Of a DNA stretch of 64,000 nucleotides, positions 25,248 through 59,264 are shown one piece after another. Source of the DNA: Aurantimicrobium sp. MWH-Uga1 (lineage in GTDB: Bacteria; Actinomycetota; Actinomycetes; Actinomycetales; Microbacteriaceae); NCBI RefSeq assembly GCF_003325955.1, contig NZ_CP030929.1, positions 992,001-1,056,000 of the forward strand, in the 5' to 3' direction. A program made the translations under genes and the position numbers. The notes beneath the pieces are model-generated. The model was not told the DNA's origin, did not search any database, and saw only the letters and a list, made by a program, of their open reading frames with translations. Within the stretch, counting starts at the first letter, position 1; every line of letters begins with the position of its first letter.

Positions 25248-25651
25248 GGAATTTGGGGCAACTGGAGGTCAACTGTTGCCCCCAAGATTGCACACCGCGC
25301 TGAGATTCCTACGCCGGAGGCAACCAAGGCACTCACGTCAGGTTGGTTCCCATCCACAATGGATTGAACCTGTGACTTCAAACCGGTGAGTGATTCTTTG
25401 AGTTGCTGATCTGTTGCTCCAGAAAGCACCTGATCGAGTTGACTGGGAACGCTCACAATCGCTGCTGGCAAACCGAGAATATCTCCACTGCTAAATGCTG
25501 CGTTGAGAGTTTCCCACGTTGTACTCACAGACTCACAGGCTGCTGTGTTCGCGGCTTTATCGTTTGCATCAAAACTTGGAATTTGATTACAGCCCGTCAA
25601 CGCAAGTGAAGCAACAATGACGGTTGTTCCTAAATGGACGGATTTATGCAA
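25244..25651 (-). CDS. Putative lipoprotein, unknown function
   Basis: A 135-residue protein with a lipoprotein signal: basic start, hydrophobic stretch, and lipobox LALTGC at about residue 21. The mature part is helical ([37 protein letters not shown]). The only reasonable start is a TTG at 25651 that overlaps the dapF stop by 8 bases, so it may depend on dapF translation. I do not recognise the family. Confidence 0.7.
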
Positions 25652-26561
25652 GTTCAACAACTCCCGTGTAAACAAGTTCGGCAGGTCCAGACAAAGCGAC
25701 GTGTTCGCCTTCCTCAGTAGGGAACATACGTACCGCAAGCGTTCCTCCGGGAACATCAACCTTCCAGTTATGGGGGGCTCCTTCACCAGCCCAGTGGCGG
25801 GTTGCCAGGGCTGCAGCCACAACTCCAGTTCCACACGAGAGGGTCTCCCCGGAGCCACGTTCGTGAACTCGCATACGGATATGGCCGACACCATCTTTGA
25901 CCAGCGGGTCACGAGGAACAACCAGTTCCACATTTGCACCTTCAGGAAGTGCTGGTTCTAAACGTGGAGCATGCGAAAGATCTGCCGTATCGAGCTCAGT
26001 ATCATCAGCAAAAGCCGCAATGACGTGAGGGTTGCCCACGCTAATTCCCAGACCAGGCCTTGCGACGGGAACACCGTCAACTTTGACGACTGGTTCACCG
26101 CCAGCAAAACTCCAGCGCCCCATGTCAACTTGAAAGCTGGCACCTTGGGCGGTGAGATCACGGACCCCTGCGCGCGTGCCAATGGCCAGAGTTTCGCCGG
26201 GATTAATCGCGGTCAGGCCGGTTTCAAGAAGATATTTGGCAAAAACACGTATCCCGTTTCCACACATTTCACTCAGAGAACCATCTGAGTTGTAGTAATC
26301 CATAAACCACTCAGCTGCTGCATCTTCTTCCAGCGCTGCTGAACCAGCAGGATCTGAAACAATCTGTCCAGGCTCATGTTTGCGATTGAGTTTGCTACTT
26401 TTCACGGCACGAATCACGCCGTCTGCACCAATTCCAAAGTGTCGGTCACACAGTGCAGCTATCTGACTTGGAGTCAGCGGTAGTTCACCCTCAGGGTCGG
26501 TGTAGAGCACAAAGTCATTACCTGTGCCGTGACCTTTGGTGAAATGGAGCGAAATAGCCAT
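25644..26561 (-). CDS. dapF: Diaminopimelate epimerase
   Basis: Converts LL- to meso-diaminopimelate in the lysine pathway. The 305-residue product has both catalytic cysteines in [13 protein letters not shown] and [12 protein letters not shown], and the start motif [13 protein letters not shown]. dapA is also in this window. It lies exactly 9 bases after the miaA stop; that stop codon forms the first half of TAAACT at the leaderless distance, so dapF may have its own promoter. Confidence 0.97.
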
Positions 26562-26567
26562 GTGTTC

Positions 26568-26573
26568 AGTTTA
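26568..26573 (-). promoter_or_regulatory. -10 element for dapF formed by the miaA stop codon
   Basis: TAAACT lies at -12 to -7 of the dapF ATG; its first three bases are the TAA stop of miaA. No Shine-Dalgarno sequence fits in the 9-base gap. Confidence 0.55.
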
Positions 26574-32685: not shown

Positions 32686-33255
32686 CTAGTCCTTTTTTGT
32701 GGCAAGTTTCTTTGTTTGCCTTCGGGCATCAAGAAGATAGTCGATACCCGTCCAAACGGTGATGATGGTGGCTACAGACATCAAGATTGTGTTCAACACA
32801 TCAGCTGCAGTGCCCATAAATATCTGAAGGGGAAGCAACGCGCAGGTAATGGCAACAAACTGAGTAATTGTCTTGAATTTACCGCCACGAGAAGCAGGGA
32901 TGACATGATCACTGAGCACAGCAAATCGATAGACCGTAATGCCAATTTCGCGAAGCAGAATCAAGCCGGTGACCCACCAAGGAAGTTCACCGAGTATCGA
33001 CAGTGTAATGAGGGCGCCGCCGGTCAGTACTTTGTCAGCAATAGGGTCAAGAAGCTTCCCGAAATCGCTGACTACGTTGTATTTACGAGCTAGGTAGCCA
33101 TCAATTCCATCTGTTGCCATGCCTAAAACAAAAAGTCCGGCACCCCACCAACGCAAAGGCGAGTTCAGGTCATCACCTGCTGTCAGGAGCATCCCAATAA
33201 AGACTGGCGCAAAAAAGATGCGAACAATGGTGATGATGTTTGGTACGTGCTTCAT
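32686..33255 (-). CDS. pgsA: CDP-alcohol phosphatidyltransferase, likely phosphatidylglycerophosphate synthase
   Basis: A 189-residue membrane enzyme with the CDP-alcohol phosphotransferase motif DGIDGYLARKYNVVSDFGKLLDPIADK (pattern DGx2ARx8Gx3Dx3D, slightly shifted). It would make phosphatidylglycerol phosphate from CDP-diacylglycerol. It lies exactly 9 bases after the ftsK stop. That TAG is the first half of TAGCCT at leaderless distance, so pgsA probably has its own start of transcription. Confidence 0.92.
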   Translation of the reverse strand: MKHVPNIITIVRIFFAPVFIGMLLTAGDDLNSPLRWWGAGLFVLGMATDGIDGYLARKYNVVSDFGKLLDPIADKVLTGGALITLSILGELPWWVTGLILLREIGITVYRFAVLSDHVIPASRGGKFKTITQFVAITCALLPLQIFMGTAADVLNTILMSVATIITVWTGIDYLLDARRQTKKLATKKD

Positions 33256-33261
33256 AGCTTC

Positions 33262-33267
33262 AGGCTA
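33262..33267 (-). promoter_or_regulatory. -10 element for pgsA formed by the ftsK stop codon
   Basis: TAGCCT is at -12 to -7 of ATG 33255; its first three bases are the ftsK TAG stop. No Shine-Dalgarno sequence is present in the gap. Confidence 0.6.
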
Positions 33268-35982
33268 GTCCCGGCCTGTGAGTTGCCATGCGTCTTCATT
33301 GCCGTCATCCCCATCAACTTCCTCATGACCCGACGTCATGGATGCAACGGGATCATGCCCGTAAGGGTCTTCAGAAGCCATCACAGTGATGTTTCCCGTG
33401 GGAGCAACTACAGTGGGAACATCTTCTCCGCGGAGAGTGGCGAGAACACCAGCAAGTTGTTCCTGAGAAACTAGAACATCTCGAGCTTTGGACCCTTCAG
33501 AAGGACCAACGATTCCCCGACTTTCCATCAGATCCATCAAGCGTCCAGCTTTGGCGAAACCAACACGTAGTTTGCGTTGCAGCATCGATGTCGAACCAAA
33601 CTGCGTGGAGACGACAAGTTCAACAGCTTGAAGCAGTACGTCTAAGTCATCACCGATGTCTGCATCGATTTCTTTGCGCTCTGCTGCTGCGGCAACATCC
33701 TGACGATATTCAGGTCGTGCTTGTCTAGTGACATGGGTGACAACTTTATGGATTTCCTCTTCCGAGACCCATGCACCCTGAACCCGAATGGGCTTATTGG
33801 CGCCCATGGGTAGGAAGAGAGCGTCACCTTGCCCGATGAGCTTGTCAGCGCCCGGTTGGTCGAGAATAACGCGCGAATCTGTAACGCTCGTTACCGCAAA
33901 TGCTAGACGCGAGGGAACATTGGCCTTAATCAAACCGGTAACCACATCTACCGAGGGTCGCTGGGTTGCCAACACCAAGTGAATTCCGGAAGCACGTGCA
34001 AGTTGAGTAATTCGCACCACGGAATCTTCGACATCTCGAGGAGCAACCATCATCAGGTCCGCGAGCTCATCAACAACGACGAGGAGATAAGGATAAGGAC
34101 GCAGTTCTCTCTCACTGCCAGGGGGCAGCACGATGTCATTATTGATAACAGCCCGGTTGAAATCATCGATGTGACGGAACCCAAAACTTGCCAGGTCGTC
34201 ATAACGCATATCCATCTCTTTTACGACCCACTGAAGAGCTTCTGCAGCTTTTTTGGGGTTTGTAATGATGGGGGTAATCAGGTGTGGAACACCGGCATAG
34301 GGCGCTAACTCGACGCGTTTGGGATCTACAAGAACCATGCGTACTTCTGCGGGAGTTGAGCGCATCAGGATGCTGGTAATCATGGAGTTAACGAAGCTTG
34401 ACTTACCAGAACCGGTTGAACCTGCGACAAGAAGGTGGGGCATTTTGGCCAGGTTCGCTACGACGAAGCCGCCCTCAACGTCTTTACCCACGCCAATAGT
34501 CATGGGGTGCTCACTAGAAGAGGAAGCGTTAGAGCGCAGTACGTCACCCAAAGTGACGATTTCTCTGTCTGTATTTGGAATCTCAATACCGATGGCACTC
34601 TTGCCGGGAATCGGCGAGAGGATGCGTACCTCATTAGAAGCAACGGCATAGGAGAGATTCTTCGACAGCGCAGTGACGCGTTCGACCTTCACGCCAGGCC
34701 CAAGTTCAATTTCGTAGCGTGTCACTGTTGGTCCACGGCTAAATCCGGTAACGGTGGCGTCTACTGCGAATTGTTTAAGTACTTCTGTGATTGCCCTGAC
34801 AGCCTCATCATTCGCTGCAGAACGAGTCTTTGCAGGGGCTCCTGCGGACAGTGAATTGGCGGGAGGTAGGCGGTACACGGCAGGTGGCGCCTTGGGAGCG
34901 GAAACACGAGGGACAACAGATTCATCAACACCAGCCTCTTCAGCCGTTGCGGCAACAATCGCTACCGGAGCTGTAGAAACGTTGTCCTGAGAAGCTACAG
35001 ATTCAGGATCTGTGACGACCTCTCCTGTATGGAATGCGCGCACTGCTTCTTCTGCGTTGGCTAATTCTTCAATGATGTCCACGTCTGAGATCTCGCGGGT
35101 GGCGGCTAAATCAACTGCATGTGCCGCAGGATCAGTTATCACCGGTGTATCAAAAGCTGCTTCGGTTTCACGCTTGCTCGCGTTTCTGCGCCACCACGGC
35201 AACGAGGACGCCTCAACTGGATCAAGCTCGAGAATCTCAATTGAGCCAGTTTCTTTGCTTTCAGCCCCAGCATGTGAACCAAAAAGATACTCATACAGTT
35301 CACGTAAACGAGCACCGATGCGGTTTGGTGGAGTCTTGGTGATGATCAGTAGTGACAGCACAATGAGCGCAATCATCACAGCAACAGCACCTACCGGAGT
35401 GATGATGAGAGCTAATGGAGCCGCGATGACCCAGCCCAATACGCCGCCTGCATCAGCGAGGGCTGCAATTCCTTGAGAAGGGTCTGGTTGGCCACCGAAA
35501 ATTTGTGCCAAACCAGAGGATGCCATCAGGAGCAGGAATACGCCAACACCGATGCGGTTGTTGTCATTGACCGAGCTTGGGTGACGAAATAGCCACATTG
35601 CCATCAGCAGCATCACTACCGGAAGGGCATAGGCAATCCGGCCAAATAAACCACCAAATGTCCAGTCGTTGATGGTTTGAGCAATCTCATTGTTGGGCAG
35701 AAACCACTGCGTAATGGCACCAATAACCGCTAAAACAACGAGCGTGAAAGGCACGCCATCACGACGTTCTTCTTTAGAAAACTTTTCAGGTCCTAGCATG
35801 CGTGCGGCACCACCAGCAAGATGAGCCATGCTCATCCAAAGCCACGCGATTCCGGTGTACTGGCTTCCTCCGTTAGAGGACGTTGATCGACTTCCGGATG
35901 CAGGCTGAGACTTCTTGCTGCTCGAGGCACGCGAACGAGAGCCACCACTACTGCGACCACGCGATTGAGAGCCTGAAGCCAT
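33265..35982 (-). CDS. ftsK: DNA translocase FtsK
   Basis: A septal DNA pump that segregates chromosome termini. The protein of about 905 residues has a Ser/Arg-rich N-terminus, four membrane segments within about 60-220, a linker, and a RecA-like motor with [14 protein letters not shown] (Walker A) and [13 protein letters not shown] (Walker B). A C-terminal winged-helix gamma domain ([21 protein letters not shown]) reads KOPS-type sites. ATG 35982 has TAGTTT at leaderless distance; GTG 36006, eight codons upstream, has a GGGGA ribosome site and cannot be excluded. Confidence 0.96.
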
Positions 35983-35989
35983 GCCTTCA

Positions 35990-35995
35990 AAACTA
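35990..35995 (-). promoter_or_regulatory. -10 element candidate of ftsK
   Basis: TAGTTT lies at -13 to -8 of ATG 35982. If GTG 36006 is the true start this hexamer is only coding sequence. Confidence 0.35.
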
Positions 35996-36015
35996 CGCGA
36001 GGGCACCGACTTTCC

Positions 36016-47983: not shown

Positions 47984-48907
47984 GTGGTGGCTCGTGCGTT
48001 AACGGTTCTCATCGCTGGTGGGTCAGGGATGATTGGCTCAGCTCTTTCAGTGCTATTGCAGGAACAAGGTCACGTTGTTTGCCATCTCTCGCGAAATCCC
48101 TCCAGCTCCGCTTCCAGTGTTCAGTCATTTTCCTGGGCTCCTGGGGCGGATCCTTTGGACTTAGACCAGCTAGCACAAGGCATCGGAAAACCCATTGATG
48201 TGATTGTCAATCTGGCAGGATCAACCATCAGCAAAATGCCGTGGACAGCCACACGCAAGAAAATAATTCTCGACTCTCGCATTGCATCGACGAGCACCAT
48301 TGTGGACGCGATTGCCCGAGCTCAATACAAACCCGAGGTGCTGATTAACGGCTCTGCTGTCGGATTTTATGGAGACCGCGACAACGAGATTTTGACTGAA
48401 TCTTCTTCACAAGGGGTTGGTTTCCTCGCTGAAGTTGTTGCCAAGTGGGAAGAAGCAGCGATGCCGGCAACACAACACACTCGAGTTGTCTTGGCTCGAA
48501 CTGGGCTTGTCCTCGGTGACCATGGAGCTTTAGGCCCTTTGAAACTCATCACAAAATTCTTTGCATCCGGCCCACTAGCCGGCGGCAAGGACTGGTGGCC
48601 GTGGATCAGCTTGGAGGACGAAGTCCGCGCGCTGGCATTTTTGATTGACCACGATGTCACTGGCCCGGTCAATCTCGTTGGCCCTGAATCTGCAACCTCT
48701 GCGACCGTCATGAAAGAGCTTGCCCATCAACTCAAACGGCCATTCTGGCTACCAGCGCCTGGCTTCGCCATTTCGCTACTGTTAGGTCAAGCAGGTCGTG
48801 AACTTCTTCTCTCCAGCCAACATATTGTTCCAGAGGTTCTGTTAAGTTCTGGTTTCAGCTTCACTGATCAGACAATTTCTGAGGGTGTGCGCTCAGCTCT
48901 GAGATAA
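47984..48907 (+). CDS. TIGR01777 family SDR epimerase-like protein
   Basis: A 307-residue extended short-chain dehydrogenase of the SDR39U1/YfcH type. The NAD(P)-binding motif GGSGMIGSALSVLLQEQGH is at the N-terminus; NLAGSTI and LINGSAVGFYGDR follow, and the C-terminal DUF1731 region (FWLPAPGFAISLLLGQAGRELLLSSQ) identifies the family. AGGAGG precedes the GTG start. Its TAA stop overlaps the -10 of the next gene. The substrate is unknown. Confidence 0.9.
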   Translation: MVARALTVLIAGGSGMIGSALSVLLQEQGHVVCHLSRNPSSSASSVQSFSWAPGADPLDLDQLAQGIGKPIDVIVNLAGSTISKMPWTATRKKIILDSRIASTSTIVDAIARAQYKPEVLINGSAVGFYGDRDNEILTESSSQGVGFLAEVVAKWEEAAMPATQHTRVVLARTGLVLGDHGALGPLKLITKFFASGPLAGGKDWWPWISLEDEVRALAFLIDHDVTGPVNLVGPESATSATVMKELAHQLKRPFWLPAPGFAISLLLGQAGRELLLSSQHIVPEVLLSSGFSFTDQTISEGVRSALR

Positions 48908-48910
48908 CGT
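48905..48910 (+). promoter_or_regulatory. -10 element formed by the SDR gene stop codon
   Basis: TAACGT at -12 to -7 of ATG 48917; its first three bases are the TAA stop of the SDR gene. A GGAGG lies only 1 base from the ATG. Confidence 0.45.
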
Positions 48911-48916
48911 GGAGGT

Positions 48917-49411
48917 ATGGGTGTACGCATCGAAAAAATTGACCTGCCCGGTATTGGTGTTCGACACGACGTCGTAACTCAAGAGGGACAACGCATCGGG
49001 GTATTGAGTTACCGAGATGGTAACCGTGAGGTTGCCCTCTACGATCCAGAAGATCCCGACGCCATCTTGGGCTCTGTGGAACTCACTGGCGATGAAGCGG
49101 CAGCACTATCTGACCTCCTCGGTCACGCAGCACTTCTGAGCCAACTCTCTGGATTGGGTGGCGGCACGATAGGGCTATATACCGAACAGCTCATGCTTCC
49201 TGCAGATTCCAGATTCCTCGATCGTCCTCTTGGAGATACTCAAGCCCGAACCAGAACTGGAACCTCCATTGTTGCCATCCTGCGTGGCAAAGATGTGATT
49301 GCCTCACCTACTCCTGCAGAAATTCTGCGACTAGATGACCTCATCGTTGCCGTAGGAACCCGCGAAGGTTTGGACAAACTGGACTCATTGCTCGCACACA
49401 GCCAGGTATAG
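48917..49411 (+). CDS. TrkA-C (RCK_C) domain regulator, KhtT-like
   Basis: A 164-residue soluble protein. The C-terminal part (about 80-160) is an RCK_C domain (GTSIVAILRGKDVIASPTPAEILRLDDLIVAVGTREGLDKL), which binds nucleotides. The N-terminal part resembles KhtT. It lies 3 bases before a CPA2 antiporter, as in the Bacillus KhtTU potassium exporter, so it probably gates that antiporter. It lacks an RCK_N Rossmann domain. Confidence 0.87.
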   Translation: MGVRIEKIDLPGIGVRHDVVTQEGQRIGVLSYRDGNREVALYDPEDPDAILGSVELTGDEAAALSDLLGHAALLSQLSGLGGGTIGLYTEQLMLPADSRFLDRPLGDTQARTRTGTSIVAILRGKDVIASPTPAEILRLDDLIVAVGTREGLDKLDSLLAHSQV

Positions 49412-57197: not shown

Positions 57198-57323
57198 GGC
57201 AGATTGTGGCGTTGTATTGCTAATCGTTACGCCCGGTTCGGCGAGCTCTTCCGCTTTCGTGTCACCATGAACCAAGCGAAACATCTGTTTAGCGTTATTC
57301 AATGTCTGGGTTGGGGTGCACTA

Positions 57324-58457
57324 GTGAACGTTTCTTTTGCACCTTCAGCACGCTCAACCGTTGGTATCGAATGGGAAATCGCACTGATTGATAAGCAATC
57401 AGGGGAATTGCAGAATGTCGCCGACAAGGTGCTTGGAGAGCTCTACGGCCCCGATTTCTCGGCGCATCCCTTCATCACAGGTGAATTACTGATGAACACC
57501 GTTGAGCTGGTTTCTGACGTGCACAATACCGTGGGCGGTGCTGTTCAGGATCTACGAGGACAACTTGCTGAAGTCCGACACGTTACAGACCCACTCGACA
57601 TTGACTTGATTTGCTCGGGAAGTCACCCCTTTGCACAGTGGCAGGAACAGGTGGTCTCTAACAAGGCCCGATATCACAAGCTGATTGAGCGAACTCAGTG
57701 GTGGGGTCGCAACATGATGATTTGGGGAATCCATGTTCACGTTGGCATTGAAGATAAGTCAAAAGTTTTCCCCCTCCTCAACGCACTTTTGTCCTACTAT
57801 CCACACCTGCAAGCACTATCTGCTTCAAGTCCGTTTTGGGCTGGCGAGGCTACCGGCTATGCCTCTAATCGTGCTTTGATGTTTCAGCAGCTCCCTACCG
57901 CGGGACTCCCCTATGACCTCCCCAACTGGGAATCATTCGAACACTATGTGGATGACCTCACTCGCACTGGAATCATTGATGTGGTCTCTGAGGTGCGCTG
58001 GGACGTTCGCCCTGCCCCCAAATGGGGCACGATTGAGTTCCGCGCCTGTGACGGCCTTTCCACTGCGGAAGAAATCGGCGCGGTAGCTGCGTTAACGCAG
58101 TCACTGACCGAATGGTTCTCTGCCAAACTCGACGCTGGTAAAGAACTCCCCCACCTCAAGCCATGGTTCGTGCGTGAAAACAAGTGGCGCTCTGCCCGTT
58201 ATGGCCTTGATGCAACAATCATCATCGATAATCGCGGCACAGAAGTGCCTGTGCGAGAACACATTCATGCTCTACTGAGCCAGCTGCATCCGACAGCTGA
58301 AAAGTTGGGATGTGCCCAGGAACTCGAACATATCAACTTAATTCTGGGGAAAGGCGCCAGCTATCAGCGCCAACTTGCCGTCTTTGAAGAAACTAAAGGT
58401 GATTTGCGGGATGTGACACTCTCGTTAGCTCGCGAATTGCGCAACGGGCTGTCGTAG
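57324..58457 (+). CDS. Glutamate--cysteine ligase-like carboxylate-amine ligase (YbdK family)
   Basis: An ATP-grasp-like ligase of the GCS2/YbdK family, forming gamma-glutamyl amide bonds. The product from GTG 57324 is 377 residues, starting with the family pattern FAPSARSTVGIEWEIALID. The motifs TGELLMNTVELVSDVH, WGIHVHVGI and GTIEFRACDGLS are visible. The frame is open for 40 more codons upstream but these do not look like family sequence. It is divergent from rpsP. The physiological thiol product is uncertain. Confidence 0.88.
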   Translation: MNVSFAPSARSTVGIEWEIALIDKQSGELQNVADKVLGELYGPDFSAHPFITGELLMNTVELVSDVHNTVGGAVQDLRGQLAEVRHVTDPLDIDLICSGSHPFAQWQEQVVSNKARYHKLIERTQWWGRNMMIWGIHVHVGIEDKSKVFPLLNALLSYYPHLQALSASSPFWAGEATGYASNRALMFQQLPTAGLPYDLPNWESFEHYVDDLTRTGIIDVVSEVRWDVRPAPKWGTIEFRACDGLSTAEEIGAVAALTQSLTEWFSAKLDAGKELPHLKPWFVRENKWRSARYGLDATIIIDNRGTEVPVREHIHALLSQLHPTAEKLGCAQELEHINLILGKGASYQRQLAVFEETKGDLRDVTLSLARELRNGLS

Positions 58458-58460
58458 AGT
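58455..58460 (+). promoter_or_regulatory. -10 element formed by the gshA-like stop codon
   Basis: TAGAGT at -12 to -7 of GTG 58467; its first three bases are the TAG stop of the upstream gene. No ribosome site is present. Confidence 0.55.
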
Positions 58461-58466
58461 TTTCAC

Positions 58467-59264
58467 GTGTGTCGACTCCTCGGTTATGCTGCTCCGGTGC
58501 CTCGAACGGTGGCATCTGTGCTTGGTGGCGCCCAGTCGCGAGTCTTTCTTGACATGGCAAAACTTCACCGTGACGGCTGGGGTTCATCCTGGATTGATGA
58601 ATCCGGTGACGTGGAGCTCGAATCGGTCAAACAAAACAGCTCTGGGTTGGAAGATCAGCAGCTTCTCGACGCCCTAAGTCGTTTTTCAGCCAAGGCCAAA
58701 ATCATTCACCTCCGCCTGGCAACAGGTGGCATGGCCTGCGAGCCAGAAAACACCCACCCGTTTGTTTCAGGCAACATTTCTTTTGCTCACAACGGTTCTT
58801 TCCCTGACCTCGCCGTCGTGGAGGAGATGCTCTCTCCCAGCGTGAAGGCGGGAATCAAGGGCGATACCGATAGCGAACGCTATTTCGGCCTGATTCAAAC
58901 CTATAGAGAGCATGGAAGTACGCTCTCCAAAGCAGCACAGAAAGCTGCAGGCATGCTGCGTTCGCTTTTCCCCACATCAAGCCTGAATGCGCTGGTTCTC
59001 TCCGAAACGCAGCTCATTGCCGTGCATGCATCATCGGGAGCCCCGAGCCCCATCGAAGAGTTCGACAAGCGCGGTATCGACAAGAGCACCTTGCCAGCAG
59101 ACCACGATGATTCCTACTACCTCATGCGCATGAAACAGCGCGTAGATGGAACCATCGTCTTTGCCTCCAGTGGCTTAGATATTGACGACTGGGAACCACT
59201 GGAACACGACAGTGTCACCACCGTGGATCTGAAAACTTTGAAGTTTGAAACAGTCTCGATCTAG
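58467..59264 (+). CDS. Class II glutamine amidotransferase (YafJ type)
   Basis: A stand-alone Ntn-hydrolase-like glutaminase of 265 residues. The catalytic Cys is residue 2 (MCRLLGYAAP), exposed after Met removal. HLRLATGG, NTHPFVSGNISFAHNG and GDTDSERYF match the type II amidotransferase fold. In mycobacteria a related enzyme (EgtC) acts in ergothioneine synthesis beside a gamma-glutamylcysteine ligase. The adjacent YbdK-like gene is reminiscent, but no egtB or egtD is visible. It shares its last 4 bases with the convergent gene. Confidence 0.88.
   Translation: MCRLLGYAAPVPRTVASVLGGAQSRVFLDMAKLHRDGWGSSWIDESGDVELESVKQNSSGLEDQQLLDALSRFSAKAKIIHLRLATGGMACEPENTHPFVSGNISFAHNGSFPDLAVVEEMLSPSVKAGIKGDTDSERYFGLIQTYREHGSTLSKAAQKAAGMLRSLFPTSSLNALVLSETQLIAVHASSGAPSPIEEFDKRGIDKSTLPADHDDSYYLMRMKQRVDGTIVFASSGLDIDDWEPLEHDSVTTVDLKTLKFETVSI

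Follow-up and report, generated by a model that had tools for sequence, protein, structure and literature searches.

In the genome of Aurantimicrobium sp. MWH-Uga1, the TAA or TAG stop codon of one gene recurrently forms the first half of a six-base TARNNT box that lies directly upstream of the next gene on the same strand. Very probably this fused box is the promoter element of a leaderless downstream gene, whose first three bases are also used as the upstream stop. Four such junctions are found in the stretch of 64,000 nt analysed here (positions 992001-1056000 of the single-contig genome of 1,609,479 nt, or 1.61 Mb; hereafter the window). A first-pass annotation had described them, including the miaA TAA contained in TAAACT, and all four were present exactly as described; each of them fits the formula TAR NNT N6 start, with 9 bases between stop and start (Table 1). 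The central proposal of that annotation, that such stops recurrently double as the first three bases of a leaderless gene's -10 box, is supported by an excess of 9-base gaps and of the final T outside the window, by the flanking bases, by the choice of stop codon and by conservation of the box. One of the downstream genes encodes a CDP-alcohol phosphatidyltransferase and is called pgsA-like here. In the case of the amidotransferase gene, aligned relatives open with Met-Cys at the place of the GTG start at 58467, while the gene finder alone preferred 58509.

Table 1. Features of the four stop/box junctions in the window (boxes are predicted -10 elements; junctions are written from stop to start codon)
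Feature	Position	Strand	Basis
miaA/dapF junction, TAA ACT GAACAC ATG	26573-26559	-	
TAAACT, miaA stop TAA (26571-26573) + ACT, predicted -10 box of dapF	26568..26573	-	sequence, relatives' loci
dapF, ATG at 26561	25644..26561	-	Pfam DAP_epimerase; N-terminus aligned in relatives
miaA	26571..27500	-	Pfam IPPT
FtsK/pgsA-like junction, TAG CCT GAAGCT ATG	33267-33253	-	
TAGCCT, FtsK-gene stop + CCT, predicted -10 box of pgsA-like gene	33262..33267	-	sequence, relatives' loci
CDP-alcohol phosphatidyltransferase gene (pgsA-like)	32686..33255	-	Pfam
FtsK/SpoIIIE DNA translocase gene (longest ORF)	33265..36006	-	Pfam; gene finder's start = 35829
Epimerase/TrkA_C junction, TAA CGT GGAGGT ATG	48905-48919	+	
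TAACGT, epimerase-gene stop + CGT, predicted -10 box of TrkA_C gene	48905..48910	+	sequence, relatives' loci
NAD-dependent epimerase/DUF1731 gene	47984..48907	+	Pfam
TrkA_C domain gene	48917..49411	+	Pfam
GCS2/glutamine amidotransferase junction, TAG AGT TTTCAC GTG	58455-58469	+	
TAGAGT, GCS2-gene stop + AGT, predicted -10 box of amidotransferase gene	58455..58460	+	sequence, relatives' loci
Glutamate-cysteine ligase family 2 (GCS2) gene (longest ORF)	57204..58457	+	Pfam
Class II glutamine amidotransferase gene, GTG start 58467	58467..59264	+	Pfam; relatives aligned

We looked for leaderless-type boxes at starts that stand apart from other genes. Genes were predicted from hexamer statistics, without the use of any upstream motif; on one 50-kb stretch of E. 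coli, the predictions of this gene finder agreed with the annotation at 41 of 42 stops and, to the exact base, at 30 of 42 starts. The free-standing set comprised 467 starts located at least 25 bases after a same-strand gene or at least 15 bases after an opposite-strand gene. TANNNT was present at -12 in 77 of these 467 clear starts and at -13 in 34, the counts at the remaining offsets between -30 and -5 ranging from 0 to 9. SD-like words were found in 3 of the 77 starts with a -12 box, versus 183 of the 467 clear starts overall. A class of leaderless genes, as predicted from these features, is present in this genome, and its signal is the one already known for such genes in Actinobacteria (PMC3160421, PMC3898074, PMC3890552). 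The second register, at -13, points either to 7-base spacers or to transcription beginning one base ahead of the start codon. Most of the free-standing -12 boxes (59/77) begin with TAG or TAA, i.e. they contain a stop codon word, and the commonest of them is TAGGCT. A search for TTGACA matches at offsets -48 to -23 revealed no -35-like signal at either fused or free-standing boxes; according to the available part of a study of M. tuberculosis promoters, no -35 signal was identified there either (PMC3898074).

The junction statistics were obtained on 864 kb of the genome, containing 546 same-strand gene pairs. As the start choice of the gene finder is imperfect, any in-frame start codon was counted rather than the chosen starts. 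Among same-frame junctions, a start codon occurred at gap 9 in 21 of 76 possible cases, compared with 43 of 672 at gaps of 6, 12, 15, 18, 21, 24, 27 and 30 bases (P = 1.3e-7). The sixth base of the box was T in 17 of the 21 gap-9 junctions and in 32 of 150 controls, which were TAA/TAG junctions with a chosen gap of 5-59 bases except 9 and 10 (P = 1.4e-7). Gap 9 was also compared with its immediate neighbours, as the first-pass annotation had proposed: at gaps of 8, 9 and 10 bases, in-frame start codons were found in 10/196, 21/76 and 10/91 cases, T occupied position -7 in 3/10, 17/21 and 5/10 of those starts, and T completed a stop-initiated box in 0/8, 17/21 and 3/10 TAA/TAG junctions. The share of T at -7 is thus not low at gap 10. 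When the 17 junctions with T were removed, gap 9 fell to 4/76, close to the frequency at the other gaps, indicating that the 9-base excess consists of box-bearing junctions. The choice of stop codon followed the same pattern. TGA was absent from the 21 gap-9 junctions, compared with 103 of 546 overall, and the stop was TAG in 13 of the 17 fused sites versus 144 of 443 TAA/TAG stops overall (P = 3.5e-4), which matches the TAG-rich free-standing boxes.

The stop-start spacing might be a coincidence, the window having been noticed for its four cases. Fused gap-9 sites are indeed about four times denser in the window than elsewhere in the sample (4 in 64 kb, 13 in the remaining 800 kb); four sites per 64 kb are not typical of the genome, and the window is rich by luck. 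Since the window was the discovery set, the test was repeated without it. A start codon was then found at gap 9 in 17/69 cases versus 41/607 (P = 1.5e-5), and T in 13/17 versus 29/137 (P = 1e-5). This persistence, together with an excess of T at gap 9 in two other genera (see below), leads us to reject chance, which we regard as hardly credible. The first-pass claim that a fixed 9-base gap combined with the final T would be unusual by chance thus holds across the genome sample. Its broader suggestion, that every gene could be given its own promoter in this way, goes much too far: the fusion recurs, but of the 546 same-strand pairs it accounts for 17 with a gap of 9 and 3 with a gap of 10, the gap-9 fusions representing about 3% of same-strand junctions.

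We sampled 400 kb from each of two other small-genome genera (G017 and G020) and 250 kb of E. coli. At gap 9, T was found in 6/9 junctions versus 13/88 in G017 (P = 0.0016) and in 7/7 versus 11/54 in G020 (P = 7e-5), the values at gap 10 being 0/3 and 4/6. The start-codon excess at gap 9 was seen in G017 (9/42 versus 23/384, P = 0.002) but was not significant in G020 (7/44 versus 28/359, P = 0.07). The proposed fusion is therefore backed by the T excess in both further genera and by the gap excess in G017 only. Because of the T excess in G017 and G020, the stop/-10 arrangement is not limited to the genus of this genome. On the 250 kb of E. coli, a box-completing T was found at gap 9 in 0/3 junctions. 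Four further samples, half the size of those of G017 and G020, contained few TAA/TAG stops at these gaps: T was present at gap 9 in 0/1 (G013), 0/2 (G022) and 1/1 (G025) junctions, with no case in G027, and at gap 10 in 0/1, 1/1, 2/2 and 0/2, respectively. These comparisons at most suggest that the arrangement may require a small genome. The smallest genome sampled, G022 (0.93 Mb, same family), displayed little -12 box signal (6/98 far starts) and lacked the arrangement at gap 9, indicating that compaction alone does not bring it about. A different compact layout was observed in the first 200 kb of G020 (L081-L090), where the start codon directly follows the stop (gap 0) in 9 of 19 same-frame pairs, all nine with TAA or TAG.

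If fused boxes are promoters, their surroundings should resemble those of free-standing boxes. At fused sites, free-standing boxes and starts without a box, C occupied -8 in 53%, 56% and 13% of cases, A occupied -4 in 71%, 56% and 38%, and C or T occupied -1 in 88%, 75% and 63%, respectively. A flank score for resemblance to free-standing boxes was built from eight positions not used to define the sites, i.e. outside the stop and the T. Its median was 1.47 for the 17 fused sites, compared with -2.42 for 47 junctions with a different gap (P = 2.5e-5), the four gap-9 junctions without T having a median of -2.76; six of the 17 fused sites did not score above zero. SD-like words between -18 and -4 were found in 1 of the 17 fused sites, compared with 19 of the 47 junctions at other gaps, and we rejected on this ground an overlap of the stop with a Shine-Dalgarno motif. 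The start codons of the fused sites were ATG in 13 cases and GTG in 4, with no TTG.

Conservation was followed at six junctions, chosen for having the box, across up to eight genomes of the genus; both registers, with spacers of 6 and 7 bases, were allowed in the junction tables. TARNNT 6 or 7 bases before the start was kept in all 42 within-genus copies, and in 41 of the 42 the box was fused with the stop of the preceding gene, the gap being 9 in 35 copies and 10 in 6. Since the gap of the fused copies is either 9 or 10, the constant element is the fusion of box and stop and not the gap of 9. The first-pass formula, TAR NNT N6 start with a gap of exactly 9, needs to be widened accordingly: the excess does lie at 9, but the spacer may have 6 or 7 bases and the gap 9 or 10. 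This within-genus conservation is partly due to shared descent, and that of the gene starting at 58467 says little, as the gene is present in only two of the eight genus members. At the TrkA_C gene, GGAGG directly precedes the ATG in 8/8 genus members, as GGAGGT or GGAGGC (48911-48916, + strand; L141-L148). This GGAGG lies too near the start for an ordinary Shine-Dalgarno sequence and would be superfluous in the untranscribed spacer of a leaderless gene; it counts against the leaderless-promoter reading.

In the junction tables, loci with incomplete sequence (L320, L327) or no aligned start (L355, L170, L172, L173) were not judged. Outside the genus, the dapF box was kept in 18 of 22 loci, 12 of them with TAGACT or TAGGCT, and no box was found at a usable in-frame start in the other four (L024, L027, L029, L030). 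Of the 18 box-bearing loci, 4 had the miaA stop fused to the box, 5 had it upstream and 6 had it past the point where the box begins, no miaA being found in the other 3. Another form of sharing was seen at one of these 6, the dapF locus of G016 (L022), where the last T of a TAGCCT box is the first base of an upstream TGA stop. The panB locus behaved similarly. Seven genomes of the genus use the TAG of TAGACT as the nadE stop, whereas in the eighth (G004) nadE ends four bases earlier, at a TAA lying 13 bases ahead of the panB start, with TAGACT kept in place; in three other genera TAGACT was kept and the fetched flank contained no nadE match. Because both boxes are kept even at loci whose upstream stop has another position, we consider the box as the older element at dapF and panB, the upstream stop probably moving on and off it. 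This argument rests on these two genes, since the box is often missing outside the genus at the other loci: none stood at a usable in-frame start in 22/22 loci of the pgsA-like gene, 11/13 of the TrkA_C gene, 9/10 readable loci of the 58467 gene and 10/16 rows of a ZIP-like gene, some of these rows being two pieces of one locus. For panB itself, no box was found at a usable start in 11 of 20 readable loci. Some of the boxes detected outside the genus, such as TATGGT and TATCAT, may be chance matches.

These data bear on a reading without any promoter, in which ribosomes would re-initiate translation 9 bases after the stop on a polycistronic mRNA. In favour of this reading, the genome has many closely spaced same-strand pairs (48 with a gap of -4, 43 with -1 and 26 with +2), and most of the fused genes lack SD-like words. 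Re-initiation, however, does not predict T at -7, the absence of TGA, the preference for TAG, C at -8 or A at -4; gap-9 junctions without T are no commoner than junctions elsewhere; and both the dapF and the panB box are retained at loci with the upstream stop in another place or with no neighbour found. In view of the stop codon and T pattern and of the boxes conserved apart from the stop, we rejected pure re-initiation as the main reading and consider it very improbable. Both routes could also operate together, the downstream gene having its own leaderless promoter while read-through transcripts are translated by re-initiation. This would be compatible with the fused box being a promoter: the geometry is the same, and re-initiation at starts near upstream stops has been described, in the available part of the source (PMC4633059). 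Nothing in the sequence requires the second route, and we judge it rather unlikely.

Under the preferred reading, in which the fused box is a leaderless promoter, RNA polymerase carrying the main sigma factor would recognise TARNNT as a TAGNCT/TANNNT -10 box and begin the RNA with the initial base of the downstream start codon, producing a leaderless mRNA onto which ribosomes would load. The first three bases of the box would be read in frame as the stop of the preceding gene, and upstream transcription may also read through the junction. The evolutionary path, for which dapF and panB are the guides, may have started with loss of intergenic DNA or with minor changes of frame close to where the upstream gene ends, through which the TAA or TAG of the box would be captured as a stop, the downstream gene keeping its own promoter within an intergenic space of only 9 or 10 bases. 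The fusion is the commonest single gap among same-strand genes with a -12 box (15/57; no other gap has more than 3), as expected if lost upstream stops were replaced by the next in-frame stop, inside the box. At gap 4, where the last T of the box would be shared with the stop, TANNNT was found in 2 of 11 junctions.

The elements of this arrangement are already known separately. In actinobacterial leaderless (TA-led) genes, a TANNNT -10 box precedes the start by about 12 bp (PMC3160421, PMC3898074, PMC3890552), and the fused sites share with them the box and its distance (TANNNT 6 or 7 bases before the start in 17/21 gap-9 junctions), the scarcity of SD words and the ATG/GTG starts; as far as the available parts of those accounts show, they differ in that the box sits here on the upstream stop codon. 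Stop codons are also reported to overlap a following gene's Shine-Dalgarno motif, stop usage and spacing being adapted (PMC2784483, in its available part). There too the stop doubles as part of a signal for the gene that follows, and both spacing and stop choice adapt, but that signal is an RNA one for ribosome binding with gaps of 5-8, whereas the present one is a predicted DNA promoter box with gaps of 9-10 and TAG as the favoured stop. A compact same-strand layout is shared with junctions of the ATGA or TGATG type, at which overlapping stop and start codons support termination-reinitiation, as the available part of PMC6728339 describes them. The fused sites differ from these in having a gap of +9 or +10 without overlap of stop and start, TAR instead of TGA, and probably an independent promoter rather than coupling. 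Among the open-licence papers listed, judged mostly by title and opening of the abstract, none describes a stop codon that forms the first half of a -10 box. The stop/-10 fusion joins two known facts, leaderless TANNNT genes and stop/Shine-Dalgarno overlap, and reveals no new machinery.

For the family, we lean towards the view that in streamlined Microbacteriaceae the stop word of the box offers a ready-made landing site, so that compaction converges on the fusion as the commonest short-gap internal promoter and the sigma preference for TAGNCT shapes the upstream stop and blocks TGA. If so, the promoter of a downstream gene can fix the stop codon of its neighbour, which could otherwise switch freely between TAA, TAG and TGA. 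Few junctions are affected. Junctions of 9 or 10 bases are usually read as intra-operonic, and the fused pairs observed here probably have separate promoters; three of them (miaA/dapF, ftsK/pgsA-like and nadE/panB) join different functions. Tightly packed genes on the same strand would then not need to form operons, and TARNNT at the stop should be checked for whenever operons are predicted or starts annotated in compact actinobacteria.
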